NCBI RefSeq assembly: GCF_003288845.1 | Contig: NZ_NHYN01000015.1 | Coordinates: 1-42,957, forward strand | Reading direction: 5' to 3' | Length of the DNA: 42,957 nucleotides | DNA from: Helicobacter monodelphidis | GTDB lineage: Bacteria > Campylobacterota > Campylobacteria > Campylobacterales > Helicobacteraceae | Shown here: one piece after another, positions 26,045-42,957 of the stretch | Numbering within the stretch: position 1 is the stretch's first letter | Layout of the letters: each line of letters begins with the position of its first letter | Program-made: the position numbers and the translations under genes | The notes under the pieces: model-generated | The model's input: the letters and a program-made list of their open reading frames with translations, nothing else | The model's database searches: none | What the model was told of the DNA's origin: nothing

Positions 26045-26100
26045 TTAAAGTATAAATAATATTTCACCACAAAAAGTAAGAGGCGAAGCAAAGGGATTAT

Positions 26101-26679: not shown

Positions 26680-26740
26680 CTTAGGAATCACAAATGAGTC
26701 ATTTACCACATAGAATCAAAAAGTATAGAATCTCAAACAC
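26663..26740 (+). repeat. 78-bp direct repeat, copy A
   Basis: From the last codons of the secreted protein at 26101 through the first 15 codons of the frame at 26694. It is matched at 27491-27568 with four differences in 78. Confidence 0.9.
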
Positions 26741-27507: not shown

Positions 27508-27568
27508 CTTAGGAATCACAAATGAGCCACTTACCACATAGAATCAAAAAGTATAGAATCTCAAACAC
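27491..27568 (+). repeat. 78-bp direct repeat, copy B
   Basis: Partner of 26663-26740, at the same place relative to the immunity gene stop. The leader frame it carries (ATG 27522) stops at 27584, just where a vgrG tail begins. Confidence 0.9.
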
Positions 27569-27579
27569 TTTCTTTTTAA

Positions 27580-27792
27580 GCTAGAAATGTTGCCAATATA
27601 GAATCTGATTCATTAGGTATCATTGCACAAAGCACTATACAAACAATAGCTGATAATGAAATCACCCATAAAGTAGGCGAAACCCAAATCATAGCCAAAG
27701 GAGACTCTGTCATCATAAAAGCAGGTGGAGTAGAAGCAATATTAGATGCTAATGGACTTGTAGTCAAAGGTGGAGAGGTGAAGAGTGAGTGA
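27580..27792 (+). pseudogene. vgrG 3'-end fragment 1
   Basis: Open frame of 70 codons without a start, ending NEITHKVGETQIIAKGDS and GGVEAILDANGLVVKGGEV, nearly identical to the ends of the two other vgrG pieces. It corresponds to the last beta-helix repeats of the VgrG needle tip. It abuts the broken leader of repeat copy B. The short frame beginning with the GTG at 27784 overlaps its stop, as a real gene does at 40771. Confidence 0.8.
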
Positions 27793-27857
27793 GAGAGAGA
27801 AAAACAAGATAGGGATTAGGGGAGTATGTAAGCTATAATACAGATTCTAAAGGAGCG

Positions 27858-28235
27858 ATGATGAAGCAAGATTCTCATAAAACTACTAAAAGGTTTGACC
27901 CATTACTATTTAATGGCTTGGGAAGTGAGAGGGAGCGAAAATGGAATAATATTGTTAATGTTATTATGTATGATATTAGTATTATTATTGGTGTAATTTC
28001 TTTTGTATTTTTCAATGTTTTTGTGATTCAAAAATCAAATAATAATATTTGGATATTTTTATATATTATTTATATAATTACTTTTATAATTTATTGTATT
28101 TTATGGTTTTATTTAAAAGATAAAAATGCTTTAACAACCTATCTTTTAAATACTCTAAGTATGTTAGATTCTACGATTAGCACGATAGCAACAAATGCAG
28201 CACCAATGTATATAAAGATTATTATTTACTTTTAA
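27858..28235 (+). CDS. two-TM protein, possible N-terminal part of a pore-forming toxin
   Basis: 125 residues with two strong TM segments (about 37-57 and 66-85) and AAGGAG before two ATGs. No family recognised. At its end (MLDSTISTIATNAAP) the frame stops, and another frame continues with a glycine-rich hydrophobic hairpin, so it may be one toxin split by a frameshift. Alternatively it is a small membrane immunity protein. It lies directly after a vgrG tail, where a T6SS toxin is expected. Confidence 0.5.
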   Translation: MMKQDSHKTTKRFDPLLFNGLGSERERKWNNIVNVIMYDISIIIGVISFVFFNVFVIQKSNNNIWIFLYIIYIITFIIYCILWFYLKDKNALTTYLLNTLSMLDSTISTIATNAAPMYIKIIIYF

Positions 28236-28617
28236 AGACGGGATAAAAGGGGCAGCATTAAATATAAGCAATGAAGAATTAAGTGTAAGTGAAAAGATAG
28301 TATTAGGTGGGGTTACTATTGGTATAGGTGTAATTGGAACTCTTGCTGGACTTAAAATTATAGGCAGTCTCATTGTATCTTATCTAGCAACTTGGATTTT
28401 AAGCAATGTATATATTTATCTGCGTGATAATAGTTTAGAACAAATTTGGCAAGATATGAAAGACTTAGCAAATGATACTTGGAAACGCACAATATCTCTT
28501 ATAGAATCTGATACAAGAAGTTTAGAGGATATAAAAGAAAGTTTAACAAATAAAGTAGCAGATGAGATATTGATATTAATAGCAGAAATCCAAAAACTAA
28601 TATCAAAATTCATATAG
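28216..28617 (+). pseudogene. startless frame with glycine-rich membrane hairpin
   Basis: Frame shifted by one relative to the gene at 27858 and overlapping its end. It encodes a membrane hairpin (GGVTIGIGVIGTLAGLKIIG, then SLIVSYLATWIL) and a helical C-terminus with LEQIWQDMKDLANDTWKR. Such hairpins occur in pore-forming toxins. There is no start codon near its beginning; it is probably the second half of the protein begun at 27858. Confidence 0.45.
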
Positions 28618-28631
28618 AATAAGGAGATATT

Positions 28632-29297
28632 GTGCGATACAAAGTTATTCAAGATTTCAAAACTAATTGTGTGGAGTTGTTTCCAAACTATAATTTCACT
28701 CTAGGAAAATACCGAACACAAATTGAGTTACTTTTAAAGTTTCCATATATCACAAAAATAGATATTTTAGATTTTTTTGAGCTTAGTGGACTGTGTTATT
28801 ATTGTGATTCTTATGGCTATGGAGATAGATTTGAATGCGATGAACTTTTTTGGGAGATTCCAGAAGTCGATTTAAACTTGTATAAGCCAACTCTTGCAAG
28901 CGAATATATCCATATCATTGGGCAACTCTTCTTAGCAGGATATATTGATTTTTTGTGTGAATGGGACGATGATAGAAGCAGAATAGATTATCCTACTAAT
29001 TTATCCTATTACAAAGAAGACAAATATCAAGCTTGGATATATTTTAGGGATAATTTCTTTTATAAAGAAAAATTTTTAAGAAAATTTGATGATAATTATC
29101 ATACAATAGATTATGCTTCTTGGGACAATCCAGAATCTTGGAGTGAATACAATATTTTAGTCGCAAGGACAGAAAAAGGCACAAAATACTTCAATGAGAT
29201 TCTATCCCCTAGATTCTATAAGAAATATAAAGATTTAAGTGTAGAGATAGATGATAAAGGGAATATTATAAGGTGGATTGGGGAGATAAATAGATGA
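28632..29297 (+). CDS. acidic protein of unknown function, probable cytoplasmic immunity factor
   Basis: 221 residues, no signal peptide, rich in Asp, Glu, Tyr and Trp (for example FLCEWDDDRSRIDYP). Start GTG 28632 with AAGGAG directly upstream, 14 bases after the membrane-hairpin frame; its TGA overlaps the ATG of the next vgrG fragment. No family recognised. Position between a toxin-like frame and a vgrG tail supports an immunity role; this is inference. Confidence 0.6.
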   Translation: MRYKVIQDFKTNCVELFPNYNFTLGKYRTQIELLLKFPYITKIDILDFFELSGLCYYCDSYGYGDRFECDELFWEIPEVDLNLYKPTLASEYIHIIGQLFLAGYIDFLCEWDDDRSRIDYPTNLSYYKEDKYQAWIYFRDNFFYKEKFLRKFDDNYHTIDYASWDNPESWSEYNILVARTEKGTKYFNEILSPRFYKKYKDLSVEIDDKGNIIRWIGEINR

Positions 29298-29941
29298 GTG
29301 TAACACCTAAGGGAGATGAGCATAAGACAAGCTTAATTGCAAGGAGTATCAATAATCCTTAACAAGAAATACTAGGTATGAAAGATGTGAGAGTAGGAGC
29401 AGAATATCTGACCAATGTAGCACTCTCTAAAGATACCATAGTAGGAGGAAGCCATACTCTTAATATAGGGATAGATAATAAACTAAGAGTATTAAAGAAT
29501 AGTAGTGAATATATAGGTGGGGACAAAGAGACTACTATACAAGGCAATACAATAGAATCTATTCATGGAGAGAGAATAGAGAATGTGAGAGGTAATAAGG
29601 TAGAGGTAGTGGAGGGAAGTTTGGATATAAGTGTCAATAAAGATATAAATACCTTTATCCAATCAAACTACACCCTAACAGGCAATGGTGCTGTTGATAT
29701 ACGCTCCGATACAAACACTCACATACAAAGCAAAGAACAATTATCTATAAGTGCAGATAATACAGAACAACTCTTTGAATCTGATTGTAATGTAAGTGCA
29801 GGAAATCAAATTATACACCAAGTGGGCGAAACCCAAATCATAGCCAAAGGAGACTCTGTCATCATAAAAGCAGGTGGTGTAGAAGTAGTGATAGATAGTA
29901 ATGGACTTGTAGTCAAGGGTGGAGAGGTGAAGAGTGGGTAA
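29294..29941 (+). pseudogene. vgrG 3' fragment 2 with internal deletion and stop
   Basis: Begins MSVTPKGDEHKTSLIARSIN and reaches a TAA at 29360, then continues in the same frame as QEILGMKDVRVGAEYLTN to the common end GGEVKSG. Compared with fragment 3, 388 bases (39813-40200 there) are missing and the junction created the stop. The part from the ATG at 29378 (187 codons) is still open. Needle-tip repeats are visible (HTLNIG, ETTIQGNTIESIHGERIENV), with a divergent central stretch. Confidence 0.8.
29361..29592 (+). repeat. vgrG tail repeat, 232-bp conserved block (copy in fragment 2)
   Basis: Matches 40201-40432 base for base in length with scattered substitutions; similarity is lost right after GAATGTGAGAGG and returns near the 3' end. 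Confidence 0.85.
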
Positions 29942-30025
29942 ACTTAAAAAGCCTATCAAGATGCTACAAAATGGCATATATCATCAAATGATTAAATAAC
30001 AATATACTAAAGCAGAAAGGTAACA

Positions 30026-30754
30026 ATGGATAATAGACAAATACACACTTTTACAAGAGAGAAAGCGAGAGGGATTCTATTGATTTTTACAACACTAAGC
30101 CTATGTGTGAATCTAGCCTTTGCACAAAGCCCAAATGAAGCAAAGCCTAGCTTTGATTGTGCTAAGGCGAAGAGTAAGATAGAAAAGATGATTTGTAGCG
30201 ATAGTGAATTATCTAGGCTAGATTCTGCAATGGCAAAGGAGTATGCAAAGCTTAGAAAAAGCCTTGATAAAGTAGCTAGAAAAGAGCTTCTTAATACTCA
30301 AAGAGCGTGGATAAAGGCGTATCAAGATTGCAGAGATGATAAAGAGTGTATCGCTAAAAGTCTGCAGGATAGAATTAGATTCTTAGAGCGTTATATCGAT
30401 ACGAAGAGCAATGCGTGGGCTGGAATCTGGAGCTTATCATATAATCTTTATGAAGGGGAATTTGATATTGGATATTGTGATAAAAGTGGTGATTGTGAGG
30501 TTGCGTATTATGCGGAGCTTAAACAAAGCGAGTTTAATGATTTGCATATTTGCGAGTCTAATATGACACTAAAAAGAGGGGTAAAAAATGTAGCGACACT
30601 ATATTTTGAGGGTAGCGATAACAAATGCCAAATTGAAGCACAAATAAATGGCAATACAATGAAGCTTATCACGCAAACACCAAGTGATTGTGATTTTGGT
30701 TGTGGCGTAGGTGCAGAGCCTGTCATCAATAAGCCATATCGTAGGAAAAAATAA
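30026..30754 (+). CDS. LprI/DUF1311-domain periplasmic protein 1 (lysozyme-inhibitor-like)
   Basis: Signal peptide (ending near LAFA) followed by the DUF1311 pattern: SFDCAKAKSKIEKMICSD, LSRLDSAMAKEYAKL, then QRAWIKAYQDCRDDKEC and DRIRFLERY. This family includes the mycobacterial lysozyme inhibitor LprI. A further 100-residue C-terminal part has six Cys. Located in a T6SS toxin region just before a lysozyme-like effector, it is a good candidate immunity protein. A 64-base stretch (30096-30159) is identical to the next DUF1311 gene. Confidence 0.75.
   Translation: MDNRQIHTFTREKARGILLIFTTLSLCVNLAFAQSPNEAKPSFDCAKAKSKIEKMICSDSELSRLDSAMAKEYAKLRKSLDKVARKELLNTQRAWIKAYQDCRDDKECIAKSLQDRIRFLERYIDTKSNAWAGIWSLSYNLYEGEFDIGYCDKSGDCEVAYYAELKQSEFNDLHICESNMTLKRGVKNVATLYFEGSDNKCQIEAQINGNTMKLITQTPSDCDFGCGVGAEPVINKPYRRKK
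30096..30159 (+). repeat. 64-bp identical leader repeat, copy 1
   Basis: Encodes the end of the signal peptide and the start of the DUF1311 domain; identical to 30926-30989. Confidence 0.9.
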
Positions 30755-30867
30755 TGCTTTATGATACGCAAATTTTAAGTTATAATGATTATCTCAAAGA
30801 ATGTGCTAGAGTTTTAATTGCTTTTGAATATCTAAATCACAAAACAAGATATTTTAGAAATACTTAA
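30754..30867 (+). CDS. 37-residue open frame, possible cassette remnant
   Basis: Its ATG shares a base with the preceding TAA. It begins MLYDTQILSYNDYL, vaguely like the start of the muramidase at 31609 (MLKTTNQSYNDF), which also follows a DUF1311 gene. It may be the ruined start of a second toxin of that kind. The similarity is short and could be chance. Confidence 0.25.
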   Translation: MLYDTQILSYNDYLKECARVLIAFEYLNHKTRYFRNT

Positions 30868-30897
30868 GAAAATTACTACTACAAACAAGGAGATTGT

Positions 30898-31608
30898 ATG
30901 AGATACTTTATGATTGTTGCGATATTAAGCCTATGTGTGAATCTAGCCTTTGCACAAAGCCCAAATGAAGCAAAGCCTAGCTTTGATTGCACTAAAGCCA
31001 CCACAAAGATAGAAAAGATGATTTGTAGCGATAGTGAATTAGCGAGGCTAGATAGATTGTATTCTAAGCTTTATTTTACCACACTCAAAGCTATCCTAAA
31101 GGATACGCCACAAGGGAAAGAGACAAGAGAGAATCTCAAGGCTTTTAATAGGCAAGTGATGGAAGCTAGAAACTCAAAAGCTTGTTATTATTCATCTTTG
31201 AGAAATACAGAATATATCGAGAATAAAGAGCTTCCTATTTGCATAAAAGATATTTATTTGGAAGCCTTAGTGTATATCGCCTATAATATGCTAGGGGAGC
31301 AAAAGTTATTAGAGTTTATAGAAAAGGATTATCCAGATGGCAATCCTTATTATAGTAGCGGGAGATATGACATCATAGCAAATCTTGCTTATTATAATCT
31401 CTATGATAGATTTTTTGATGCTAAACATAAAAATATTATTTTAGAATTTTTTAATTTTAGTGCAGAAAGATTTAATTGGGTTACCACAGGTGGAATGTCT
31501 GTAGATTCAGATTATAATGAGGTTGCGCTAGAGCATAGAGAATATTACAATAAACTTGACAAAGCTTTTAGAGTGGATACGAAGCTCAACAAACTACTAG
31601 GAAAATAA
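30898..31608 (+). CDS. LprI/DUF1311-domain periplasmic protein 2, shared leader with divergent C-terminus
   Basis: Signal peptide and FDCTKATTKIEKMICSD match the previous gene almost exactly, but after about residue 55 the sequence is unrelated and longer on helices. The stop directly precedes the ATG of the muramidase gene (no bases between), so the two are translationally linked. Likely an immunity protein for a peptidoglycan-cutting toxin; which toxin is unproven. AAGGAG lies before the start. Confidence 0.7.
   Translation: MRYFMIVAILSLCVNLAFAQSPNEAKPSFDCTKATTKIEKMICSDSELARLDRLYSKLYFTTLKAILKDTPQGKETRENLKAFNRQVMEARNSKACYYSSLRNTEYIENKELPICIKDIYLEALVYIAYNMLGEQKLLEFIEKDYPDGNPYYSSGRYDIIANLAYYNLYDRFFDAKHKNIILEFFNFSAERFNWVTTGGMSVDSDYNEVALEHREYYNKLDKAFRVDTKLNKLLGK
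30926..30989 (+). repeat. 64-bp identical leader repeat, copy 2
   Basis: Partner of 30096-30159, 830 bases downstream. Confidence 0.9.
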
Positions 31609-32184
31609 ATGCTAAAAACGACTAATCAAAGCTATAATGATTTTGAAATAAGATTGCTTACTTTGGTAAGGTTAGTGGAAGGAGCAAGGAAATATATTTA
31701 TACTGATAGTAAAACGATTGCAACCATTGGTATAGGATTCAATATTGAAGTAATAGAATGGAGAAAAGTAATTTTAATGTATAAATGCGGTATTCTTACA
31801 CCAAGCATGCTAGAAACTCAAACAAATCTTAATACAGAACCGCAAGTAAAACGCTATATCAATTCATTACTCACCCATGCAAGCCAGTCAATGCAAACTC
31901 TTATCAATACAGCCTCTCAAGAAATAAAAAACAAGATTGATGAATATAAAAGGGATAATAATCTGCAAGCCAATAGTTCTCAAGAATCCCCTAGACGCAA
32001 TGTGGTGATAATTCAAAATTTACAAAATGATATAAACACTATTTTGCAAAACAATATCGCTATTTATAATAATAATGCAGAAAATCGAAATAATCAACTA
32101 GTCAAACACAAGCAATCAATCCGCAAGAATTTATCCCTTTGCTTTCAATTTATTATCAAAGCCCAGCAAGATTTACTCAATTAG
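31609..32184 (+). CDS. T4-lysozyme-like (GH24) muramidase domain, N-terminal part of a T6SS effector
   Basis: The start reads LVRLVEGARKYIYTDSK then TIATIGIGFN. Glu24, Asp33 and Thr39 have exactly the spacing of the T4 lysozyme catalytic set Glu11, Asp20, Thr26, inside the same E-G-(x)n-Y-x-D...T-I-G-I-G pattern. It would cut the glycan backbone of peptidoglycan in the periplasm of a rival cell. No signal peptide, as expected for T6SS cargo. The true frame shifts by -1 between about 32092 and 32139; the frame shown ends in junk residues at 32184, and the protein continues in the gene starting at 32139. Confidence 0.7.
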   Translation: MLKTTNQSYNDFEIRLLTLVRLVEGARKYIYTDSKTIATIGIGFNIEVIEWRKVILMYKCGILTPSMLETQTNLNTEPQVKRYINSLLTHASQSMQTLINTASQEIKNKIDEYKRDNNLQANSSQESPRRNVVIIQNLQNDINTILQNNIAIYNNNAENRNNQLVKHKQSIRKNLSLCFQFIIKAQQDLLN

Positions 32185-34154
32185 ACAAATCGACATCAAC
32201 CAAAGACCTTATTTTGTTAAAAAAAGCCTTGCAAAAAAAGAATAGGTTTTTAGCATGGTTTTCTATACGATATTATGCTGATATATGCAGATATTATATT
32301 CATAAACGAACATATACCTACTATCGTCGCAGAATTCAAGAAGCCGCCATGTTTAGATTAAACAACAAAGATGAAAATAATAATATAGAATATTTTTCTA
32401 CAAGTATAGATATATTTTCTTATCTTAATTTTAATTTCAAAGAAGCAAATACTGCTAGAGGATTAAATTTACCTAATCGCTATACTTATCTATCTTTTTT
32501 GCAAACTTATAGTGAATGCACAGCGATTGATAGAATTGCTACAACACTATCAGGCGAATACAATAAATACCACACTACCGCAGAAAATTATTATTCGTAT
32601 GTGAGCAATGAGGAATTTACAAATATCACCACTACCCTCTCCCCCTACCTCGACTATATCAACTTCACCTTTGCTAAAGGCACTATATCTCAATACGCAC
32701 TAGAGAATATCTATGTCTTAGCAGATACGAGAGATTGTGAAAACCTAACTATCGCCCTTCAAGAAAGAGGTGATACAAGAAAACTTACAGCACTTCTTAT
32801 CATTTGCCTTAAGTCAAATAGGGATTCTAGCAATAACACTCCCACTTATAGCTTCAAACAACCAAGTAATACATTCTTAAGTATTGTCGTATTTGAAGGG
32901 GCAAAGCTTGATGTCAGTGGTATAGATACACGCAATAGCGAAATACTCTATGCAAAGAGTGATACAACAAATAATATCATAGTTCATCTCTTGCTTGGCT
33001 CAAAACAATCAATGAAAAAAGAAAACGATAATACACTTAAAGCCATAGGTGATATGGGTGATACCAAAGAAACATATATATTTGAGAAAGCTCCTCATAG
33101 TGATGATAATTCTCATCTCATATCCCCGATACTTAGAATCTATAATGACAAAATAAATAATACCAATGATTTCATAGAAATACATAACTTTGCCAAAGAT
33201 GAGATAGGAGAGGATAATATCAACTATATCTTAGGTAGTGATTGCAAACAAAGATACTTTGGAATAAGCCTCCACCTAGCAGATGATACCACTCCGCATA
33301 ATACAGATTGTTCTCATGAGGGTAACTTTGAAGTTATCGTGCAAAATCTCAATCTCTATGGGTTAAATAAAGATGACAAACTCTATCTCTATGATTGTGA
33401 AAACAAACAACAACTAGAGCGAATCATCAAAGATGATTATAGTGCTACTTTTTCTCTCACACTCAATCTCCCACAACAAGATGAAGTCTCTCAAAGAAAT
33501 CTAAGCTCTCACATAGTGATAGATTCTGAAGCTATAAAGAATGATAATGAAAGCATAGCAGAATGCACACATAATGCTAATGCAAATTTCCAAATCAACA
33601 AGTTAGCTAAACTTGCTAAACGATACATCATAACTGATGCTAAGCTTAAAACGAGCAAAACACCCTTGCAAACAAAACCAACAACACTTCGTGTCAAAGA
33701 AATAGTATATGAAGCAGGCAAGGCTATGTATTATAAACCTAATGATGAAGTCATGCTTAAAGCTAAGCATAATAAAGATAATCCAAGCAAAGAAGATAAA
33801 GATGAAACCAAGTGGGCTTATATCCTTACAGATTCTCAAAATCCACCACAAAATCCAAGTAGTCATAAAATGTTTAAGATAGATAAAGGCATTACAGGAG
33901 AAACCTATCAAGTAAAGATTCTAAAAGAATACTTTAATATAACTAAGACAAACTATCTCTATATCTATGCCTATATGGGTAGTCCTAGCCCTAAAGTATG
34001 TCAATGTCTTAGGATAGCCTATCCTTTATCTTTAAAATATAGTCATAACAATACATTTCATATCATAGAATATGGAGAAATACAAGGACAATACAATATA
34101 CAAGCTCTTCGTATCGACAAGAATATACACGATAGAATCTATTATATAGACTAG
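32139..34154 (+). CDS. large C-terminal part of the muramidase effector, second frame
   Basis: This frame opens at 32092, and INPQEFIPLLSIYYQSPARF matches the last helices of the lysozyme domain, so it continues the protein started at 31609 after a one-base loss. About 550 residues of mostly unknown domains follow, then a beta-rich segment (KEIVYEAGKAMYYKPND to KWAYILTDS, about 510-590), and a connector with CLRIAYPLSLKY and IIEYGE near the end. The same connector occurs in the next effector at 36.3 kb. A second one-base loss ends this frame at 34154, while the correct sequence runs on in frame to 34351. Confidence 0.6.
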   Translation: MLSIYYQSPARFTQLDKSTSTKDLILLKKALQKKNRFLAWFSIRYYADICRYYIHKRTYTYYRRRIQEAAMFRLNNKDENNNIEYFSTSIDIFSYLNFNFKEANTARGLNLPNRYTYLSFLQTYSECTAIDRIATTLSGEYNKYHTTAENYYSYVSNEEFTNITTTLSPYLDYINFTFAKGTISQYALENIYVLADTRDCENLTIALQERGDTRKLTALLIICLKSNRDSSNNTPTYSFKQPSNTFLSIVVFEGAKLDVSGIDTRNSEILYAKSDTTNNIIVHLLLGSKQSMKKENDNTLKAIGDMGDTKETYIFEKAPHSDDNSHLISPILRIYNDKINNTNDFIEIHNFAKDEIGEDNINYILGSDCKQRYFGISLHLADDTTPHNTDCSHEGNFEVIVQNLNLYGLNKDDKLYLYDCENKQQLERIIKDDYSATFSLTLNLPQQDEVSQRNLSSHIVIDSEAIKNDNESIAECTHNANANFQINKLAKLAKRYIITDAKLKTSKTPLQTKPTTLRVKEIVYEAGKAMYYKPNDEVMLKAKHNKDNPSKEDKDETKWAYILTDSQNPPQNPSSHKMFKIDKGITGETYQVKILKEYFNITKTNYLYIYAYMGSPSPKVCQCLRIAYPLSLKYSHNNTFHIIEYGEIQGQYNIQALRIDKNIHDRIYYID

Positions 34155-34351
34155 ACAAAAGAAAAGGTATAGGAGGGTATTCTTATACTCTCTATCAAGA
34201 CAAAGATTTAAAACAACCACTAGCATACAATCTATCAACTTCAAGCAAGATAAACCTTCCTAATATCTATAGAGAATTATTAATTTCACAAGATTATCAG
34301 GATAAATTAGCAAATGCCATTAAAAATTCTATCAATAAATATTTCGCCTAA
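34151..34351 (+). pseudogene. C-terminal tail of the muramidase effector, third frame
   Basis: Open frame reading LDKRKGIGGYSYTLYQDKDL to KNSINKYFA, ending 11 bases before the next gene. It has no start of its own and joins naturally to the end of the preceding frame (RIYYID). Confidence 0.55.
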
Positions 34352-34362
34352 AAGGAGATCTT

Positions 34363-34968
34363 ATGAAAAATCTACTCGCATTGTTTGCAATTCTATTTCT
34401 ATGTCATAGTGTGCTATACGCTACAGAATCTAAGCTCACACAAAGCGATATAGATTATCTTATCGCGAACCTTAGCGCAAAAGAGCGAGAATGCGCCAAT
34501 CGCATTATTGATTTGGATACTTGCAGCTCAAGCTTCCACGCACTTAAGAAATCCTATCAATGCTATAAGTCAAACGATACCAAAGAATGCGAGAGTGCGA
34601 AAAATACCACGCTTCACACGCAATATCGCGTAGATTCTGCTGGATATGTGCCTGAAGAGGAGGAAGGCTGGTATGACCCGCATTTTAGATTTATCGAGGA
34701 TATACTCAATCTTAGTTTTATCTTTATTACTAAGAGTGAGGGGCGCGAGAGTATGCGATATTTTGTGAGGACAAATTGGGCGTTGCCAAAGGGCGATAAT
34801 AATGAAAATAGAGATGGCAAAATGATAGTATCGCTCCTTGCGGATTATGTCAATAGCGGTTATTTGGATACTATCTGCGTGGCTAAAAATGAGATAGCAC
34901 AGAATCCAAACGCATTCCCACAAGGGCTTAAAAACATAATCTCTCGCAATGCAGGGCATTGTAAGTAA
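34363..34968 (+). CDS. secreted protein of unknown function, candidate immunity protein for the muramidase effector
   Basis: Signal peptide MKNLLALFAILFLCHSVLYA, then 180 residues of mainly helix with six Cys. AAAGGAG precedes the ATG, only 11 bases after the effector tail. No family recognised. Codon use is different from its neighbours, with many GCG, CGC and GAG codons and clearly higher GC. Confidence 0.6.
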   Translation: MKNLLALFAILFLCHSVLYATESKLTQSDIDYLIANLSAKERECANRIIDLDTCSSSFHALKKSYQCYKSNDTKECESAKNTTLHTQYRVDSAGYVPEEEEGWYDPHFRFIEDILNLSFIFITKSEGRESMRYFVRTNWALPKGDNNENRDGKMIVSLLADYVNSGYLDTICVAKNEIAQNPNAFPQGLKNIISRNAGHCK

Positions 34969-34990
34969 TGCCTTCTTAAGGAGGCTATCG

Positions 34991-35578
34991 ATGAATATTT
35001 TAACTAGAATCTTTATCATATTTCTTTTGGCTATCAGCGTATCTCACGCAAAAGATAAAGATTTAATCGCTTCGCAGATTTTAAAATCTCTCATTGCCAC
35101 AACTTGCGGACTAGATGATATGCAAGCAGACTTTTATCAAAGCAAATGCGAGCACTACACTTCGCTTCTTAATGAAGCTTATGAGGGGCGATTGTTGCGC
35201 GATGAGGCTAGGCATAAGGCGGTGCGAGATAAGCTTAATGCGTTAATCGATGATGAATTTGAGCTTGAGCAATTAGCTCCACATTTTGCGACTATCAAGG
35301 CACTTGGGCTAGTATTTGCAAAGGATTTTAGAGCATTTGCGACTATCAAAGATATGCTTTTTGCAGAGCATACGGAGGGTGTGGCGTATTTTGAGGATAT
35401 GCGCCATCATTTGCCCTTTGCCCTGCTGGGAATCTACGCCCTTAGCTTGGATAATCAAGCAAGTAGCAAAGATTTGGAATTATTGCATAGCGAGGTTGCG
35501 CGACACAAGGGAAAAATATCAAATGATGAGTATAGTTTTTATGAATTATTGATAAAATATAAGGAAAGCAAATATTAA
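34991..35578 (+). CDS. secreted helical protein of unknown function
   Basis: Signal peptide MNILTRIFIIFLLAISVSHA. The start at ATG 34991 is chosen over the longer frame to 34949 because AAGGAGG lies six bases upstream and the signal peptide begins there. The mature part is helical with two close Cys and a long acidic region. Same higher-GC style as the gene before it; the two probably arrived together. No family recognised. Confidence 0.6.
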   Translation: MNILTRIFIIFLLAISVSHAKDKDLIASQILKSLIATTCGLDDMQADFYQSKCEHYTSLLNEAYEGRLLRDEARHKAVRDKLNALIDDEFELEQLAPHFATIKALGLVFAKDFRAFATIKDMLFAEHTEGVAYFEDMRHHLPFALLGIYALSLDNQASSKDLELLHSEVARHKGKISNDEYSFYELLIKYKESKY

Positions 35579-35606
35579 TTTTTAAGTCTTTATTTAAGGG
35601 GATTCT

Positions 35607-35978
35607 ATGAAAAGATTAGCATTAAGTTTGTGTGTGGGATTTATCGCATTAGGATTTATAGCGTGTGATAAGGATTCACACAACGCCACAGAAACACAAA
35701 AGGTAGAATCTAATAATGCGATTTCCCAAACCACAACGCTAGATTCTATAGAATCTATAAATATGAAACCTAAAAGTGCAGAATCTCGCAATACTACTTC
35801 AAAGCTAGAAACTGCACAGATAGAAATTGTTGATGGCAAAGATTCTCAATGTAATATCAATGGCGAATCTACGCTTTATAATGAATGGGCAAGACGCTAT
35901 AGTGGCTATACTTGGAGCGATAATGGTGCGATAAACAAAGCATACTCATTTACACTTCCTATGCTATTATCGATATGA
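35607..35978 (+). CDS. lipoprotein, N-terminal part (frameshifted)
   Basis: Signal peptide with a lipobox-like GFIAC (MKRLALSLCVGFIALGFIAC), a Ser/Thr/Asn-rich spacer, then CNINGESTLYNEWARRYSGY. The frame ends at 35978, but the natural continuation (YAIIDMIAKCDMVGLQ) lies in the next frame, so one base seems lost around 35955. Probably a membrane-anchored periplasmic immunity-type protein. Confidence 0.5.
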   Translation: MKRLALSLCVGFIALGFIACDKDSHNATETQKVESNNAISQTTTLDSIESINMKPKSAESRNTTSKLETAQIEIVDGKDSQCNINGESTLYNEWARRYSGYTWSDNGAINKAYSFTLPMLLSI

Positions 35979-36313
35979 TTGCCAAATGCGATATGGTAGG
36001 ATTGCAACAGATATTTGATGAGTTAGAAACTCGCGACCATAAAATGAAGTTTTTTAATGGTATCATTGGTTCTCCAACATTTGAAGACGAATCTATCAAA
36101 AGGGCTTTGCCACAAGTGTTGGAATTTCTCTTAAAGAACAATATAAGCTCGGCTACAAATGGCTGGGTAAGCGATGAAAATAGTGATAATGAATACAAAC
36201 CCCTTGAATACGCCACCAAAAAACTCAATGAAGCTAAAGCTAAAAATGACAAAGAAGCGATAGCAAACTATGAGAAAATTATAGAGATTTTGAGGGAATA
36301 TGAGGCAAAATGA
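35975..36313 (+). CDS. C-terminal part of the lipoprotein, ankyrin-like
   Basis: MIAKCDMVGLQQIFDELETR and KRALPQVLEFLLKNNIS show ankyrin-like helix pairs. It has no ribosome site of its own and fits as the second half of the protein begun at 35607, giving a lipoprotein of about 235 residues. Ankyrin lipoproteins are found as immunity partners in some T6SS loci. Confidence 0.45.
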   Translation: MIAKCDMVGLQQIFDELETRDHKMKFFNGIIGSPTFEDESIKRALPQVLEFLLKNNISSATNGWVSDENSDNEYKPLEYATKKLNEAKAKNDKEAIANYEKIIEILREYEAK

Positions 36314-36317
36314 TAAA

Positions 36318-36433
36318 AGAATTTTGTTTGCATACCCAAAGATTCTATCTTGTAAGAATAATCCTAGCTCTAAAATATATCAATGTCTTAGGGTAGCCTT
36401 CCTATATCTTTAAGATTTAATGGCAAAGAATTA
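36318..36433 (+). pseudogene. connector-domain start of the second effector, shifted frame
   Basis: Frame with NNPSSKIYQCLRVAF, then after a one-base loss LPISLRFNGKELMIVEYGE leading into the frame at 36434. The same connector (KVCQCLRIAYPLSL ... IIEYGE) is near the end of the muramidase effector, so this is the broken upstream part of the toxin that follows. Confidence 0.55.
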
Positions 36434-37555
36434 ATGATAGTAGAGTATGGGGAGAGAAAGAGAGATAAAGTGTTTAAGTTAGATTCTCTAAGCCTTAGTA
36501 ATCCAAAAGAAATGATTAAAGAATCTAAAGAGTATAGAATAGAAATAGATTCTCTCCCACCCATACCTTTAGCACAACAACACTATACACTCAATGTATT
36601 AGATTCTAAAAATGATATTGTAGCTACTATCACAAACCACAATACACAAAATATCATTAATCCCGAAATACTTCTTGATGATAGATTCTCTCAATTTGCT
36701 GATATACTATTACAATACAAACAAAGCTTTGGGTTTGATAGGGTGAGATTGGAGGTGGAGGGTGGCACAGGACTAATGGTGCTAGAGGTTGTGAGGAAAT
36801 GGGAGTATAGTCCAAACAATGAAGATTTTAAGTATTGGGCTACTATAAGTGAGTTTAGTTTAAAGTTAGATGATGAAATAGTTAAAGATTCAGAAGGTAA
36901 AGATATAAAAGGCTATATTATAGAACCAGCGGGTTATAATCCAAAGAAAAGCAGGACAGCAGAAGAGCAACAAAAAATAGCTGGTGGAGACATAAGGATA
37001 CCAGCGGGAGAATATGAGGTATTTTGGAAAAAATCAAATATTGATAGTCCAGCCCTGATGGCAGAAAATCCGAACAATAAAGAAAGATATTTGGACGATT
37101 TGCAAAAGACAATGAAAAATTTAAATATAAACATAGAGCAGTTATATTGCAATATTGCAACTTGCAAACACAATAAAGATAATAGGAAAACTTTTGGGAC
37201 AAAACATATTCATATCGTCCCACAACTCAAACCTAAAAATAGTAAAAATAGTGTGATAGGGACAAGCAGAAATGGAATTTTAATTCATTATGGTGATACA
37301 GGCGAGTGGAGTACAGGTTGTCTTTTGCCAACAAATGAGTTGAAATGGAAAAAAGAAAGATGGATAGCAAAAGATAGGAATAGCACAGTCAATGCCGTTG
37401 CAAAATTGTATATAACTCTTATTGAACATGATACAGAATCTTTTAAAAACTATGCTCTTGGCACAAACAATCCATCAAAAAGCACAATTAAGAATTTTAT
37501 TATCAAGATTCAAGAAAAAGATAAAATTGAGTCTTACCCACCAGAAAAGGAGTAA
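36434..37555 (+). CDS. T6SS effector with DUF5675 / L,D-transpeptidase-like C-terminus
   Basis: 373 residues, but the true protein began further upstream (see the shifted piece before it). The first 130 residues resemble spacer regions of polymorphic toxins; then GYIIEPAGYNP, DIRIPAGEYEVF and NGILIHYGDTGEWSTGCLLP follow. The last carries His and Cys in the arrangement of DUF5675 and of L,D-transpeptidases (H-x-G ... S-x-G-C). It could act on peptidoglycan peptides; the enzymatic assignment is inference. The immunity-like gene starts two bases after the stop. Confidence 0.6.
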   Translation: MIVEYGERKRDKVFKLDSLSLSNPKEMIKESKEYRIEIDSLPPIPLAQQHYTLNVLDSKNDIVATITNHNTQNIINPEILLDDRFSQFADILLQYKQSFGFDRVRLEVEGGTGLMVLEVVRKWEYSPNNEDFKYWATISEFSLKLDDEIVKDSEGKDIKGYIIEPAGYNPKKSRTAEEQQKIAGGDIRIPAGEYEVFWKKSNIDSPALMAENPNNKERYLDDLQKTMKNLNINIEQLYCNIATCKHNKDNRKTFGTKHIHIVPQLKPKNSKNSVIGTSRNGILIHYGDTGEWSTGCLLPTNELKWKKERWIAKDRNSTVNAVAKLYITLIEHDTESFKNYALGTNNPSKSTIKNFIIKIQEKDKIESYPPEKE

Positions 37556-37557
37556 CA

Positions 37558-38406
37558 ATGCGTTTAGTGGTTTCTATATTTTTTATTGTTAGTATTATGT
37601 ATGCTAGTGTGTATCAGGCACACTTTCAAGATATGCTATCAAGTCAAATTTCTTATAATAGCACCTTATATAAAGACAAAGAAACAGAGGGAAAAATATA
37701 TTATGGAGGGAAAGTAACACTAAGTGGAATACTTGAATGGCAAATGTATCAAGATGAAGTCGATTTTTATTGGCGTTTGGTATTTTTTCCAGATATTCCA
37801 AATGATTTACCTAGACTTTTTGCAAATGATAATACAGCTATTAATACAGCTATATTTTTAAATGATACACTCAAAAAAGATGTCTCATTTCAAAAAAATA
37901 GTTTCTTGCAAATCTATAATATTTTACCAAATCAATTAAATCCAATAGATGAATATATCTTAGGTGGGATAGCAATACGCGCAATATTAACTTTGGAAAA
38001 TTACTATATTACTCACAAATCTTTAGATAGTGAAGCTGATACGCCATATTATGCGACCATTGCCAATGATGTAAAGGTTTTAAGCAGTATAAGAAAGTGG
38101 TATATAGCTAAGCAATTTCTTCCAAGCGAATATATATTATCCTACGCTTCCAAAGATTCTTATATCAACCTACGAGAATCCCCAAATGGTAAGATACTAA
38201 GAGCGATACAAAAAGATGAAATGGGAGACTTGTGTAAATCAATAGAAAGTGCAGAGAACAAGGGTTTGATTTTAGAATTAGGGCGGGATACTAAAAATCC
38301 TAAATGGCTAAAAGTCGCCTATATCCCACCAGAATCTAAAGACACAAGCAAGACAATCTATGGCGTGATACATGAAAGCCAAGTGAGCTATGGCTGTGCG
38401 AGATAA
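37558..38406 (+). CDS. secreted protein with C-terminal SH3-like domain, probable immunity protein
   Basis: Signal peptide MRLVVSIFFIVSIMYA; unknown N-terminal domain; from about residue 198 a bacterial SH3-like domain: SYINLRESPNGKILRAI, then WLKVAY, then IYGVIHESQVSYG. SH3b domains often bind peptidoglycan peptides or shield them. It follows the effector by two bases and is probably its immunity factor. Confidence 0.65.
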   Translation: MRLVVSIFFIVSIMYASVYQAHFQDMLSSQISYNSTLYKDKETEGKIYYGGKVTLSGILEWQMYQDEVDFYWRLVFFPDIPNDLPRLFANDNTAINTAIFLNDTLKKDVSFQKNSFLQIYNILPNQLNPIDEYILGGIAIRAILTLENYYITHKSLDSEADTPYYATIANDVKVLSSIRKWYIAKQFLPSEYILSYASKDSYINLRESPNGKILRAIQKDEMGDLCKSIESAENKGLILELGRDTKNPKWLKVAYIPPESKDTSKTIYGVIHESQVSYGCAR

Positions 38407-38483
38407 GAGAAATGATAAAGGAATGCGATGAAAAACTTTATCATCAAAATCACAGAGCAAATCACAAAAGACAAGGAGTGATT

Positions 38484-38594
38484 ATGAAATCTTTATTATT
38501 ATGTTTATTATGTGTTATAGTTGTAAATCTTTATGCTAGAGATGATAGCTTTATGTATAGAAATATAGAATTTTATGAGAAAAAATCTTTTTAA
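38484..38594 (+). pseudogene. signal-peptide start of the second SH3-like protein, cut by an in-frame stop
   Basis: ATG 38484 with AAGGAG upstream encodes MKSLLLCLLCVIVVNLYA and 19 more residues, then TAA at 38592. The frame is the same as that of the gene at 38622, so a single nonsense change separates leader and body; without it the protein would run from 38484 to 39638. Confidence 0.6.
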
Positions 38595-38621
38595 AAAGAT
38601 AGTAATACTGCCAATTCTAAC

Positions 38622-39638
38622 ATGGGAGAAAAATATTCTATTTTTGATAGTGGCTGGGTAGAAAGATATGGTATCAACAAGGAAATAAAGGTAATATATT
38701 TACGAGCATATACTATGAATTCTAGTTTATCTCAAAAGCAAAATTTGCAAAAAGTAATACCCAGATATATTAAAAATATTTATCCACATGAAATAAACTA
38801 TATCACTTTATTTGAACCTATCAATCAGCCTTATATTTATCAAATGGTGAAAGGATTTTTATATATTACAAAAAAACCTTGCGGGATTCATTCTTTTGCT
38901 ATAAATTGCTCTAATGTTGATTATGGTGTAGCTTTTTATATTACCCATGATGATGAAATGCAGGGTGGAGACACTGATAAAGGATTCTTAACTCTGCATA
39001 TCAATAATGGCATGAATCATATTTTACCCATAGAATACAACAAGATTGAAGCCATATATCCAAACATAAAAGAGTGGCTACAAGACAAATCTTATCTTAT
39101 TTTGCCTATAAAGATACAAATAAGGACGGCTGCAAGGATAGATAAACCTATTTCAATGCAGATTATCACAATATCAAAAGCACTCGCAACCACCCATAAA
39201 GAAGATGAAGAGATTGCAAAGGAACGCAAAAATATATGTGCAGAATATAAAGCACAATATCAACCAAAATATTGTTCTGATAATCCAAGTGATGATAGAA
39301 TCTACACTTATTCAAAAGATATGTATGTAAATGTGAGAGAAAAGCCAAATAATGAATCTCACATTATCAAACAAATAGCAATACAATATCCTAATGCTAA
39401 GCTTGCAGATTCTATGTATTGGGAATATGACAAGTTAGAAGATAAATATATTCCAAGCGAATCTTGGATTAATCAAAGACAAATATATCTTGACAATAAT
39501 ACACAAGTAAAATTTATAGAAAAACTCTACACAAAAGGTTTGCCAATAAATGGCTGGTATCAAGTATATTTTACAGAAAAAATAGGCAAGAGGGTAGAAG
39601 GATATATCCACAAATCTCAACTTTCTTGGGGATTTTGA
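38622..39638 (+). CDS. second SH3-like immunity-type protein, body (leader lost by stop codon)
   Basis: 338 residues; the C-terminal third is SH3-like (KDMYVNVREKPNNESHIIKQ, later GWYQVYF and VEGYIHKSQLSWGF), as in the gene at 37558, but the N-terminal parts are unrelated. The ATG at 38622 lacks a ribosome site and is probably an internal Met. Without its signal peptide the product would stay in the cytoplasm. The stop TGA directly abuts the ATG of vgrG fragment 3. It lacks a neighbouring toxin, so it may be an orphan immunity gene. Confidence 0.6.
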   Translation: MGEKYSIFDSGWVERYGINKEIKVIYLRAYTMNSSLSQKQNLQKVIPRYIKNIYPHEINYITLFEPINQPYIYQMVKGFLYITKKPCGIHSFAINCSNVDYGVAFYITHDDEMQGGDTDKGFLTLHINNGMNHILPIEYNKIEAIYPNIKEWLQDKSYLILPIKIQIRTAARIDKPISMQIITISKALATTHKEDEEIAKERKNICAEYKAQYQPKYCSDNPSDDRIYTYSKDMYVNVREKPNNESHIIKQIAIQYPNAKLADSMYWEYDKLEDKYIPSESWINQRQIYLDNNTQVKFIEKLYTKGLPINGWYQVYFTEKIGKRVEGYIHKSQLSWGF

Positions 39639-40778
39639 ATGAGTTTTCATGCTCTAAGAGTAGGAGATGAAGTGATTATAAGCTATTTAGAAAATGATAT
39701 AGATAAGCCCTATATTAGTTCTAGTTTGTATAATGTGAGTAATCCTCCTCTTATAAATCCTAAGGGAGATGAGCATAAGACAAGTTTGAGTGCAAGGACT
39801 ATCAATAATCCTACTTCATCACTGCAATCTCATAATACACAAGAGAATAATACTTCATCATTAAACAATAGTGGAGATTCTCATACTACTCAAATATCAT
39901 TGCAAGAATCTCAAGATTCGTGGCAATCTATAAATAATACAACTTCCACAAAAGAAGAGATAAATAATAAGACAGATTCTAATACCCCTACATCATCTCT
40001 CACATCATCTCATAATTACACCATAGAATCTGGTATCAATGAACTTACTCTCTCTAATATCAAAGACAAAGAACAAATCTATCTTCATGCACAAAGAGAT
40101 TATGATGAGATAATAGAGCATAACTTTACTCAAAGGATTAAACATAATAAAGACTCTCAAGTCAAAGGCAACTACACAGAATCTATCAACAAATATCATA
40201 AACAAGAAATACTAGGAGTAAAAGATATAAGAGTAGGAGCAGAATATCTCACCAATGTAGCACTCTCTAAAGATACCATAGTAGGAGGAAGTCATACTCT
40301 TAATATAGGAATAGATAATAAATTAAGAGTAGCAAAGAATAGTAGTGAATATGTAGGAGGGGATAAAGAGACTACTATACAAGGCAATACAATAGAATCT
40401 ATTCATGGAGAAAGAATAGAGAATGTGAGAGGAGAATCACAGATTCACATACAAGGAAGTTTCACACAGAATGTGGAAAAGGAAATATTTATAGATGTGC
40501 AACAAAATCTTTCAACTAATGTCAAAGACAATACAGCCTTTAGCTCAAAATCTATGCAGCACAATGTAGAGGAGCAATATTCGCTTCAAGCTGACAATGC
40601 TACGCTAGAATTACAAAGTGATTGTATCACACAAGCAGGAAATGAAATCACCCATAAAGTAGGCGAAGCTACTATCACAATTTCAGGTGATAAAATAGTC
40701 TTAAAGGCTGGAGGAGTAGAAGCAATATTAGATGCTAATGGTTTAGTAGTCAAAGGTGGAGAGGTGAAAAGTGAGTGA
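39639..40778 (+). CDS. vgrG 3' fragment 3 (end of OB domain, linker and needle)
   Basis: Begins HALRVGDEVIISYLEND then ISSSLYNVSNPPLINPKG, the end of the gp5-like OB fold of VgrG (compare RVGQEVLVSFLDGDPDRP), then a Ser/Thr/Asn-rich linker of about 65 residues and a beta-helix needle ending in GLVVKGGEVKSE. The whole gp27-like and most of the gp5-like part is absent, so it cannot form a complete spike alone. The first ATG follows the previous gene's TGA directly. The 3' end overlaps the GTG of the next gene by eight bases. Confidence 0.8.
   Translation: MSFHALRVGDEVIISYLENDIDKPYISSSLYNVSNPPLINPKGDEHKTSLSARTINNPTSSLQSHNTQENNTSSLNNSGDSHTTQISLQESQDSWQSINNTTSTKEEINNKTDSNTPTSSLTSSHNYTIESGINELTLSNIKDKEQIYLHAQRDYDEIIEHNFTQRIKHNKDSQVKGNYTESINKYHKQEILGVKDIRVGAEYLTNVALSKDTIVGGSHTLNIGIDNKLRVAKNSSEYVGGDKETTIQGNTIESIHGERIENVRGESQIHIQGSFTQNVEKEIFIDVQQNLSTNVKDNTAFSSKSMQHNVEEQYSLQADNATLELQSDCITQAGNEITHKVGEATITISGDKIVLKAGGVEAILDANGLVVKGGEVKSE
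40201..40432 (+). repeat. vgrG tail repeat, 232-bp conserved block (copy in fragment 3)
   Basis: Partner of 29361-29592; see that entry. Confidence 0.85.
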
Positions 40779-41445
40779 GATAATAAAAGATAATGATAGG
40801 GAATCTCAAAAAGACAAAGCAAATGCAGATTCAACAAAGCTAGATTCTGATGATGATAAGATTATTTGGGAGTTGAGAAAAAAGAAAGGTATAAGTTTTT
40901 TAAAAATATGGTTTTATATCTCTCGAATTGTGTTTATAATATTTTATATCTATGTATTATTTAAATACGCTTCTTTTCGTTGGGGTATGATAATGGTAAT
41001 ATTATTTCTTTCTCTTGTAATATCTTTACTTTTAAGAGGTATATTTGTATCGATAAATTTTAAAAGAATATATATTACAAAAGACAAACTTATTATTGAG
41101 AGAAATAGAGGAGATGATATTGTATTGACTTTAGGGACTTTTTGCACATATGAAAGTAATGATAATTTACAAGGTGCACTTTTTGTGAATGATACAATAG
41201 TTTTTTTAGATTTTAATGGAATGATTAAATATGATATTTTTCAACACGAATTTGAAGATAATGTTTTAAAAGAATTTCAAGTAATTATCAAGCAACACTA
41301 TACAAAATATTTATTAAACTTAGCACAAGAAAATTATTTAGAGCTTAAGAAAAAAGTATATCTTATAGTCATTCCTTTTAACGAAATAGATAAACTTAGG
41401 GAGGAAAGAGATGTCAAATCAAACTTGCAAGATAAAGCAATGTGA
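40771..41445 (+). CDS. two-TM protein, member 1 of a tandem family
   Basis: GTG start inside the last codons of the vgrG tail (eight-base overlap), so translation is coupled to it. Acidic disordered N-terminus containing TKLDSDDDKIIWEL, two TM segments (about 45-62 and 70-90), then a cytoplasmic or periplasmic beta-rich domain with IYITKDKLIIE. Two more members follow. Family unknown; the position after a vgrG tail and tandem duplication suggest immunity or toxin-adaptor roles. Confidence 0.6.
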   Translation: MSEIIKDNDRESQKDKANADSTKLDSDDDKIIWELRKKKGISFLKIWFYISRIVFIIFYIYVLFKYASFRWGMIMVILFLSLVISLLLRGIFVSINFKRIYITKDKLIIERNRGDDIVLTLGTFCTYESNDNLQGALFVNDTIVFLDFNGMIKYDIFQHEFEDNVLKEFQVIIKQHYTKYLLNLAQENYLELKKKVYLIVIPFNEIDKLREERDVKSNLQDKAM

Positions 41446-41515
41446 TACTGCGATATACAAAAGTTTATGTATTTGCTCTCCTGCATTTGAGAGGATTCCT
41501 ATAGAAGAGAATTAG
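41411..41515 (+). CDS. 34-residue Cys-rich open frame
   Basis: ATG 41411 with GGAGG at about seven bases upstream, overlapping the end of member 1. Encodes MSNQTCKIKQCDTAIYKSLC and a short tail, with four Cys in the first 22 residues. Either a real tiny protein or the start of a cassette gene that was lost. Confidence 0.35.
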   Translation: MSNQTCKIKQCDTAIYKSLCICSPAFERIPIEEN

Positions 41516-41538
41516 GATTTATAAACAAGGAGTAATGA

Positions 41539-42252
41539 ATGAATGAAAATAAACAAGAGTTAGAATCTAAAGATATAAAATCTAGCACTAATCCTAAAGA
41601 AATAAAACAAGATTTTAACAATACAGAATCTATCAATCAAGATTCCAAAAAACTAGATTCTAATGATGATGAGATAGTTTGGGAATCAAAAAAGTCAAAA
41701 ATTGGTTTAATCTTATATTGTGGGATTAGAATTATAGCTACACTATTTATCTCATATTTCGTTATCCCAAAAATCTTCACCATAGATAATTCTTTTGGTA
41801 AATTTCTTGGTATAGCAGTGTTCATTCTTTATTATCTTCTTGTAATTAAAGATGTTTTCTTTGGTTTTAATTATAAGGGGTTATATCTAACAAAAGATAA
41901 GATAGTTGTTACATATCACTTTACCAAAGATACTATTTGGAAATTTGGAAGTTTTTATGTTTATTATTATATACCAGCCAATTCACCATTTGTAGTGATT
42001 AGTTGTGATTATGGTTTTACGACTTGGAATCGTAATAATACCCTTTATGTGCCAGATATACTTATAGGTAATATAGATGTAGGTCCTTTTTTTGAGAAAA
42101 TCTATGAACTTATGAAACCACATTTGATAGAATATATGCTTAGTTTAGATGATGAAGAATATATCAAGGCTAGAAAACCCTTAAAAAATATAGAAAAGCT
42201 CACATATCTTGATGAAATAGATTCTTTAAGAAAAGAGGCAAAAAATGACTGA
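41539..42252 (+). CDS. two-TM protein, member 2 of the tandem family
   Basis: 237 residues: Ser/Asn/Lys-rich N-terminus with KKLDSNDDEIVWESKK, two TM segments (about 53-75 and 83-106), YLTKDKIVVTYHFTKD, and a helical C-terminus (FFEKIYELMKPHLIEYML). AAGGAG precedes the ATG. The last part (42097-42206) is identical in DNA to member 3. Family unknown. Confidence 0.6.
   Translation: MNENKQELESKDIKSSTNPKEIKQDFNNTESINQDSKKLDSNDDEIVWESKKSKIGLILYCGIRIIATLFISYFVIPKIFTIDNSFGKFLGIAVFILYYLLVIKDVFFGFNYKGLYLTKDKIVVTYHFTKDTIWKFGSFYVYYYIPANSPFVVISCDYGFTTWNRNNTLYVPDILIGNIDVGPFFEKIYELMKPHLIEYMLSLDDEEYIKARKPLKNIEKLTYLDEIDSLRKEAKND
42097..42206 (+). repeat. 110-bp identical repeat in members 2 and 3, copy 1
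   Basis: Identical base for base to 42848-42957, which ends at the window edge, so the repeat may be longer. Confidence 0.95.
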
Positions 42253-42957
42253 TGAAGAGAATATTGATAGAGGCTTACGCATAGAATCTCAAATAATTTC
42301 TAAAGATAATGCAAAATCCAATAAAATAGAATCTCAAAATAATACAGAATCTAAAAAGCAAGATTTCATCAATCAAGATTTTATCAAGCTAGATTCTAAT
42401 GATGATGAGATTATTTGGGAGTTGAATAAATCAAATAGTATAGGTGCAAGATTTGAAAGAATATTATATTATATTGTAAATATCGCAATGTTATGGTTTG
42501 TTATATATATAATGTTTCCATTAGTTTTACCCTTAGATAATTCCTTTGGCAAATTTCTTGCTATTATAGTTTGCATTCTTAGTATTGTTTTGGACCTTAA
42601 AAATATATTTATTGCTTTGAATTATAAGGGACTTTGTGTTACCAAAGATAAGCTCATCATCAAACACTATTTGACTAAAAACATCACTCTGCCACTAGGA
42701 AAATTTTACACATATAGTAAAATCAAAGTTCTTGGTATTTTGAGTTTGTTTGGCGATATTGTATATTTTGAAGGATTAGAGATTCAAACAGGAATTTTTT
42801 CTATCCCCGATATGCTTATAGATATGGAGCACTATCCTTTTTTTCATAAAATCTATGAACTTATGAAACCACATTTGATAGAATATATGCTTAGTTTAGA
42901 TGATGAAGAATATATCAAGGCTAGAAAACCCTTAAAAAATATAGAAAAGCTCACATA
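42245..42957 (+). CDS. two-TM protein, member 3 of the tandem family (cut by window end)
   Basis: ATG 42245 overlaps the stop of member 2 by eight bases. Long Asn/Ser/Gln-rich N-terminus, IKLDSNDDEIIWELNK, two TM segments, VTKDKLIIKHYLTK, then the same C-terminus as member 2. No stop is reached before the window ends. Confidence 0.6.
   Translation, partial: MTDEENIDRGLRIESQIISKDNAKSNKIESQNNTESKKQDFINQDFIKLDSNDDEIIWELNKSNSIGARFERILYYIVNIAMLWFVIYIMFPLVLPLDNSFGKFLAIIVCILSIVLDLKNIFIALNYKGLCVTKDKLIIKHYLTKNITLPLGKFYTYSKIKVLGILSLFGDIVYFEGLEIQTGIFSIPDMLIDMEHYPFFHKIYELMKPHLIEYMLSLDDEEYIKARKPLKNIEKLT
42848..42957 (+). repeat. 110-bp identical repeat in members 2 and 3, copy 2
   Basis: Partner of 42097-42206, 751 bases downstream. 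Confidence 0.95.

Follow-up and report, generated by a model that had tools for sequence, protein, structure and literature searches.

Campylobacter belongs to the same class of bacteria as the Helicobacteraceae. According to the parts available to us of two papers on its DNA uptake (PMC8468864, PMC8627207), Campylobacter jejuni imports DNA with methylated RAATTY through a type II/type IV pilus-like system, and one C. coli genome contains 28,482 RAATTY sites. In the available parts of other relevant papers, the accumulation of uptake sequences by molecular drive was modelled for Haemophilus (PMC7811141), the kingDUS dialect, with 5918 copies in 2.4 Mb, was in 2013 called the densest (PMC3630211), and the cyanobacterial HIP1 is described as a very abundant palindrome with a conserved centre and variable ends (PMC4390886).

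The word AGAATCT described here shares features with each of these systems. Like the CtsM-RAATTY system of C. jejuni and C. coli, it represents an AT-rich palindrome that is present in very high number alongside a type II/type IV pilus-like machine, but the motif is a different one, and its methylation and uptake are putative. Like the DUS of Neisseriaceae and the USS of Pasteurellaceae, it runs to thousands of copies, distributed symmetrically over the strands and placed within as well as between genes, and is shared by relatives with shifts in its flanks, whereas it differs from their longer asymmetric motifs in being a clumped palindrome of 7 bp. With 16,584 copies in 2.7 Mb, the densest genome (G042) surpasses the density published for kingDUS, although a 7-mer and a longer motif are not directly comparable. 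Abundance, a conserved centre and variable ends are also shared with HIP1; in contrast to HIP1, AGAWTCT is AT-rich and W-centred, has no methyltransferase link that we could find, forms in-frame arrays in proteins and is missing from the genomes that lack the pilus-like platform. A literature search of partial coverage, with most subscription papers outside it, returned no report describing the word, or any uptake sequence, from these bacteria. Among the matches listed, papers containing the string AGAATCT had unrelated-looking titles, and the strings are probably primers; the available part of a study on prokaryotic motifs includes Helicobacter hepaticus for its Shine-Dalgarno pattern only.

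The window, that is, the whole analysed stretch of 42,957 bases from Helicobacter monodelphidis, contains 80 copies of AGAATCT on both strands, compared with 10.7 expected from dinucleotide shuffles (none of 100 shuffles reached 80), and the word has the highest z-score of all 7-mers in the window under an order-2 Markov model (80 vs. 14.4). The initial annotation had listed eight copies between 41562 and 42397 and a chance expectation of well under one. All eight are at the exact positions given (Table 1), and the expectation from the shuffles is 0.21 per 836 bases. The corresponding Poisson probabilities, 7e-11 against the shuffles and 1.8e-6 against the genome mean of 0.94 copies per kb, are both optimistic, as the region was chosen for its cluster. 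The annotation's statement that copies are commoner in the accessory than in the core half was borne out as well, with 58 copies at positions 26001-42957 (8.2 times the local order-2 expectation) and 22 at positions 1-26000 (3.1 times), as was the suspected genome-wide over-representation: the host genome (1.985 Mb in 131 contigs) has 910 forward and 956 reverse copies, 1866 in total, vs. 186 + 189 = 375 for the reversed word, so that it displays the genome-wide excess of a short word far above chance that characterises uptake sequences. The reversed word served as the main control; beyond the family it is an imperfect one, since some genera hardly contain it. Close examination of the host genome covered the window and about 158 kb picked by place. 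Dispersed long repeats were considered and rejected: because the flanks of the 80 window copies carry almost no information (at most about 0.12 bit per position), the copies are not pieces of one element.

Table 1. Copies of AGAATCT in the local cluster and motif-bearing genes of the window (+, forward; -, reverse strand).
Feature	Position	Strand	Remarks
AGAATCT copy 1	41562..41568	+	N-terminal tail of gene at 41539; reads LESK
AGAATCT copy 2	41625..41631	+	N-terminal tail of gene at 41539; reads TESI
AGAATCT copy 3	41655..41661	-	N-terminal tail of gene at 41539; reads LDSN
AGAATCT copy 4	42219..42225	-	Close to C-terminus of gene at 41539; reads IDSL
AGAATCT copy 5	42283..42289	+	N-terminal tail of paralogue from 42245
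AGAATCT copy 6	42328..42334	+	N-terminal tail of paralogue from 42245
AGAATCT copy 7	42346..42352	+	N-terminal tail of paralogue from 42245
AGAATCT copy 8	42391..42397	-	N-terminal tail of paralogue from 42245
ORF, 123 aa	35607..35978	+	Five motif copies in one array (13.4 per kb)
ORF, 373 aa	36434..37555	+	Six motif copies, four in N-terminal array; DUF5675 domain at residues 277-322
VgrG-like protein	39639..40778	+	Gp5 trimerisation domain, weak phage_base_V match; six motif copies
ORF, 237 aa	41539..42252	+	No assigned family; N-terminal tail of about 48 residues
Paralogue of ORF at 41539	42245..42957	+	Cut at window end

Seven of the eight local copies thus belong to the N-terminal tails of the two paralogous genes, which stand in tandem, and one lies near the C-terminus of the first. 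A homologue from Helicobacter didelphidarum (L001) is near-identical to the first paralogue over the first 48 residues and only 38% identical over the whole protein; the QDFN of the window protein is QDSN there, with one extra motif copy. Conserved motif-bearing ends on a divergent body suggest an exchange by recombination. The same H. didelphidarum locus (L001 431-4554) holds several tandem paralogues with common N-terminal tails (..LDSNDDEIIWE..) and divergent bodies. Both window paralogues lie downstream of the VgrG-like gene, which suggests that the motif-rich half is a type VI secretion island. This probable island (26101-42957) continues after the VgrG-like gene with small ORFs in tandem paralogous copies, which may be effector-immunity cargo, and LprI-like and DUF5675 proteins are also found in it.

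The top enriched words of five genomes define the true motif as the W-centred palindrome GAWTC, in which A...T flanks are preferred, G...C flanks are tolerated and the centre must be A or T. AGAWTCT is thus a perfect palindrome with a W centre, as is typical of the HIP1 class. AGASTCT is not raised in four samples and is raised 1.5-fold in the host genome, and since GASTC shows no rise, the proposed GANTC-type (CcrM-like) mark had to be abandoned in favour of GAWTC as the core. Against a background from which the motif was masked, 160 kb of G042 contains 1028 copies of the two W-centred words vs. 17.4 expected (59-fold), while AGACTCT stands at 0.82 times this background. Variants of the word at positions 3-5 are not raised and are partly depleted in G042, whereas those at the outer positions 1 and 7 are often raised. 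One such variant, AGAATCG, is raised in G118 (1441 vs. 168 for its control) and in G120 (2024 vs. 298; presumably a Wolinella-like organism), the two genomes with the highest GC content of those sampled (45% and 48%, respectively), and has a ratio below 2 in the other 28 of 30 genomes. This flank shift resembles uptake dialects, and relatives sharing a motif or dialects of it are a further property of uptake sequences found here. In some genomes GATC or AGATCT is strongly avoided locally, as if under restriction, namely GATC in G086 (12 vs. 142, L090) and G091 (66 vs. 229, L084) and AGATCT in G042 (2 vs. 173, L022-L031).

Codon-pair or dipeptide bias had been offered in the initial annotation in the form of Glu/Asp-Ser pairs. 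The commonest reading frame of the motif does give ES and DS, and among the enriched dipeptides of the G042 sample DS ranks top (2.63) and ES fourth (2.12). However, in 183 kb of the host genome AGAATCT occurs 8, 20, and 54 times in the three frames (synonymous-null means 3.0, 7.2, and 20.3) and AGATTCT 9, 25, and 45 times (1.7, 7.3, and 17.5), so that instead of an excess in one codon phase, or counts in line with a codon-aware model, all six frame and orientation classes exceed the null, with a total of 161 vs. a mean of 57.1 (the highest of 300 runs gave 76). The smallest class, AGAATCT in frame 0, is not significant alone, as single null runs reach 11. Intergenic DNA is enriched most (40 vs. 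7.2 expected), and its motif density is higher than that of coding DNA in four of five samples, namely the host genome (1.77 vs. 1.00 per kb), G042 (10.76 vs. 5.49 per kb), G050 and, only just, G036; the exception is the small 20 kb sample of G118. These densities stem from a simple longest-ORF caller that retains some spurious ORFs. As all six classes exceed the null and intergenic DNA is richest, codon bias is refuted and we consider it a highly improbable source of the excess, which is present at the DNA level, in coding and intergenic sequence and beyond codons, as in uptake sequences. The enriched dipeptides look like the result of the motif rather than its cause.

To trace the motif, we scanned 121 genomes of the family and 348 of the order. 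All 87 family genomes outside the genus g2 exceed the reversed-word control, 80 of them at least 2-fold (the weaker seven are G090, G091, G092, G104, G106, G107, and G109), while all 34 genomes of g2, which we take, in part from the distribution of CagX described below, to be the gastric Helicobacter group, remain below 1.4-fold. Copy number varies more than 40-fold within this one family, up to the 8238 + 8346 copies of G042, which correspond to about 6 per kb and about 4% of its bases. Throughout the family scan, the counts on the two strands of a genome are equal. Outside the family only G121, from a second family, stands out with 1412 copies in 1.7 Mb, and the next densest genome noted, G194, has about 0.42 per kb; ratios are unreliable in this part of the scan, where the reversed control is very rare in some genera. 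AGAATCT seems to be strongly depleted in several genomes of g23, a genus of family f11 (G243: 12 + 20 vs. 115 + 125 for the reversed word). In a LysS tree of 30 genomes, with ratio classes of our own choice (<1.3, 1.3-2.2, >2.2), genomes with the excess lie to either side of the midpoint root, and on these grounds the excess is probably ancestral, with a loss in g2 and much weakening in g11 and part of g8. Six g11 genomes, sampled over 240 kb, have a GAWTC ratio of 1.01, i.e. no excess, and 72 copies of AGAATCT vs. 52. Part of the G050 operon for ribosomal proteins has few motif copies; contig C2 of the same genome was rejected as a plasmid for a mobile-DNA comparison, as its genes look chromosomal.

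The motif excess and a gene of the DNA-uptake machinery divide the family alike between g2 and the other genomes. A PF00482 platform gene of the type IV pilus/type II-like kind that Campylobacter uses for DNA uptake is present in 86 of the 87 non-g2 genomes (G043, with a completeness of 67%, is the one without a match). It has no match in any of the 34 g2 genomes, the same 34 that lack the motif excess. This link in g2 is one shared loss, a single evolutionary event, and is weak as statistics. CagX/VirB9 genes occur in all 34 g2 genomes, as would be expected if these had switched to ComB-type uptake, but also in 33 of the 87 others, and the family does not separate ComB from other type IV systems. 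In the host genome, platform, secretin, and ATPase genes form one operon (L091 6421-10690), the latter two being named from their sequences and a tblastn comparison. The machinery is not sufficient for the motif, because g11 retains all three genes, linked and near full length in six of seven genomes (G109 is cut by a contig end), yet the six sampled genomes show no GAWTC excess. Operon linkage was likewise rejected as a predictor, since g3, g4, and g10 are unlinked and motif-rich and g11 is linked and motif-poor. Four PF00482 matches instead of two, probably reflecting a second pilus or type II-like system, were found in G102, G103, G104, and G106-G109.

No PF01555 or PF02086 enzyme is common to all motif genomes (of 121 genomes, 4 lack PF01555 and 14 lack PF02086), so that no single shared methyltransferase was found in these two families, and G099, which lacks both, still has 649 copies of AGAATCT vs. 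192 of the control. The host genome encodes PF01555, PF02086, PF02384, and PF07669 methyltransferases, the last two of which are present in all five genomes checked. D12-class methyltransferase genes occur within about 4 kb of the platform gene at L130 (G090:C42), at L127 (G108:C13), and on G071:C3.

The motif also forms arrays in protein-coding sequence. The G042 sample has 42 arrays with at least four copies each, which are distributed over 30 of 129 ORFs and hold 257 of the 744 ORF copies. A Pfam scan of ten array-bearing ORFs (seven from G042, two from G036, one from the window) identified RNase J, glutamyl-tRNA reductase (HemA), UbiD, MBOAT, and phospholipase A1 in G042 and FtsK and LpxK in G036, and left three without a family, including the window ORF. 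In G042, arrays fill in-frame insertions in lysyl-tRNA synthetase (LysS), RNase J, HemA, and UbiD. LysS provides the plainest example: its stretch before the conserved GR(V/I/L)(K/R)(F/L) segment comprises 38-45 residues in 25 of 30 genomes, 54-57 in G086, G064, and G050, 99 in G046, and 173 in G042, where the insertion, with about 19 copies of the motif, encodes words such as NIESN and QDSK. Loop length follows motif density (Spearman 0.64, n = 30, uncorrected for ancestry). Such arrays fit an accumulation wherever the protein tolerates them and are poorly explained by base-change bias alone.

Even spacing of uptake sequences has been reported for Haemophilus. It is a frequent rather than a strict property of such sequences, and the gaps of our motif are instead clumped (coefficient of variation 1.12-1.49 in three genomes). 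In the host genome, 14.5% of the gaps are shorter than 50 bp vs. 4.8% expected. Many of the short gaps have lengths divisible by three, as would follow if the arrays have to preserve the reading frame. Site-level conservation is weak, slightly above control words: between relatives of 95%-98% identity, 103 of 115 motif sites are kept in the one 20 kb stretch compared, vs. 0.80-0.86 for control words of the same composition.

Taken together, we infer that AGAATCT is the commonest form of a GAWTC palindrome serving as a self-DNA uptake tag in most Helicobacteraceae, to which we assign a probability of about 0.5. The uptake signal, one of several options in the initial annotation, now leads because the motif and the competence machinery are linked family-wide, while recognition by the machine, biased uptake, and drive are the putative parts of this reading. 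A Campylobacter-like type IV pilus/type II-like machine would bind or import DNA bearing the tag, tagged fragments would recombine into the chromosomes of kin, and chance variants that acquire one more tag, through a base change or an in-frame duplication within a loop or tail, would be transmitted more and pile up where the protein tolerates them. Against this reading stand the clumped gaps, the g11 genomes with machinery but little motif, and the weak site conservation. The denser half of the window also counts against it, as this half is an accessory type VI-like island that is richer, not poorer, in the motif, whereas uptake sequences are rare in newly acquired segments according to the available part of the Haemophilus study (PMC7811141).

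Among the rivals of an uptake signal, the foremost is a HIP1-like palindrome with a link to a methyltransferase: a methylation target (e.g. GA*WTC) that would accrue through methylation-directed biased repair or a methylation-linked role and have no part in uptake. Campylobacterota are not known to have MutS/MutL repair, which we count against this explanation, and base-change bias by itself does not produce long in-frame insertions like the array in LysS. The palindromic core and the strict W centre of the motif would suit it, and so would the pattern of fixed inner positions 3-5 and variable outer positions 1 and 7, which also holds for HIP1 in the available part of PMC4390886; m6A methyltransferases for GAWTC are known elsewhere, as stated in the accessible part of PMC6700114. 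Although other enzyme classes could take the place of PF01555 and PF02086, the lack of a common enzyme from these families in the motif genomes leaves this explanation unlikely, at roughly half the weight of the uptake tag. A combination of both, in which AGAWTCT is methylated by an enzyme specific for it and only DNA so marked is accepted by the uptake machine, has a precedent in the closest relative with known uptake discrimination, C. jejuni, whose type II/type IV pilus machine works with CtsM-methylated RAATTY in the accessible parts of the two papers (PMC8627207, PMC8468864), and the host genome has four methyltransferase families to offer. Still, enzyme content varies widely among motif genomes and no single candidate was found, making the combination distinctly improbable. 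Chi and FtsK-orienting sites are not strand-symmetric. A site bound by a nucleoid, replication, or recombination protein, on the model of Chi or segregation sites, would be short, abundant, and genome-wide, as our word is, but the equal counts on both strands eliminate a strand-biased site of this kind, the segregation site put forward at the outset is unlikely for a strand-symmetric word with 1866 copies genome-wide, and a more than 40-fold range in number within one family and clumping in protein loops reduce the chances of the whole class to slim.

Returning to the self-DNA uptake tag, a bolder version of it, which we advance tentatively and would rate a little below even odds, sees an ancestral tag of the Helicobacteraceae that was lost together with the pilus-like machine of g2 and elsewhere entered a runaway drive. 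The tag would have come to occupy about 4% of some genomes and forced in-frame Glu-Ser/Asp-Ser arrays into the loops of essential enzymes, a transmission bias at the DNA level that reshapes the proteome.

If the uptake reading holds, the enterohepatic Helicobacter species and their relatives would have a candidate self-DNA tag, and the lack of the motif in gastric-type genomes would be explained. A practical rule for the genetics of these organisms would follow, namely, to add the tag to donor DNA. As the genomes of one family extend from those with no excess to those with 6 copies per kb, they offer a natural series on the question of whether such words are adaptive or selfish, and the arrays in housekeeping enzymes would show with unusual clarity how a transmission bias acting on DNA can write protein sequence.
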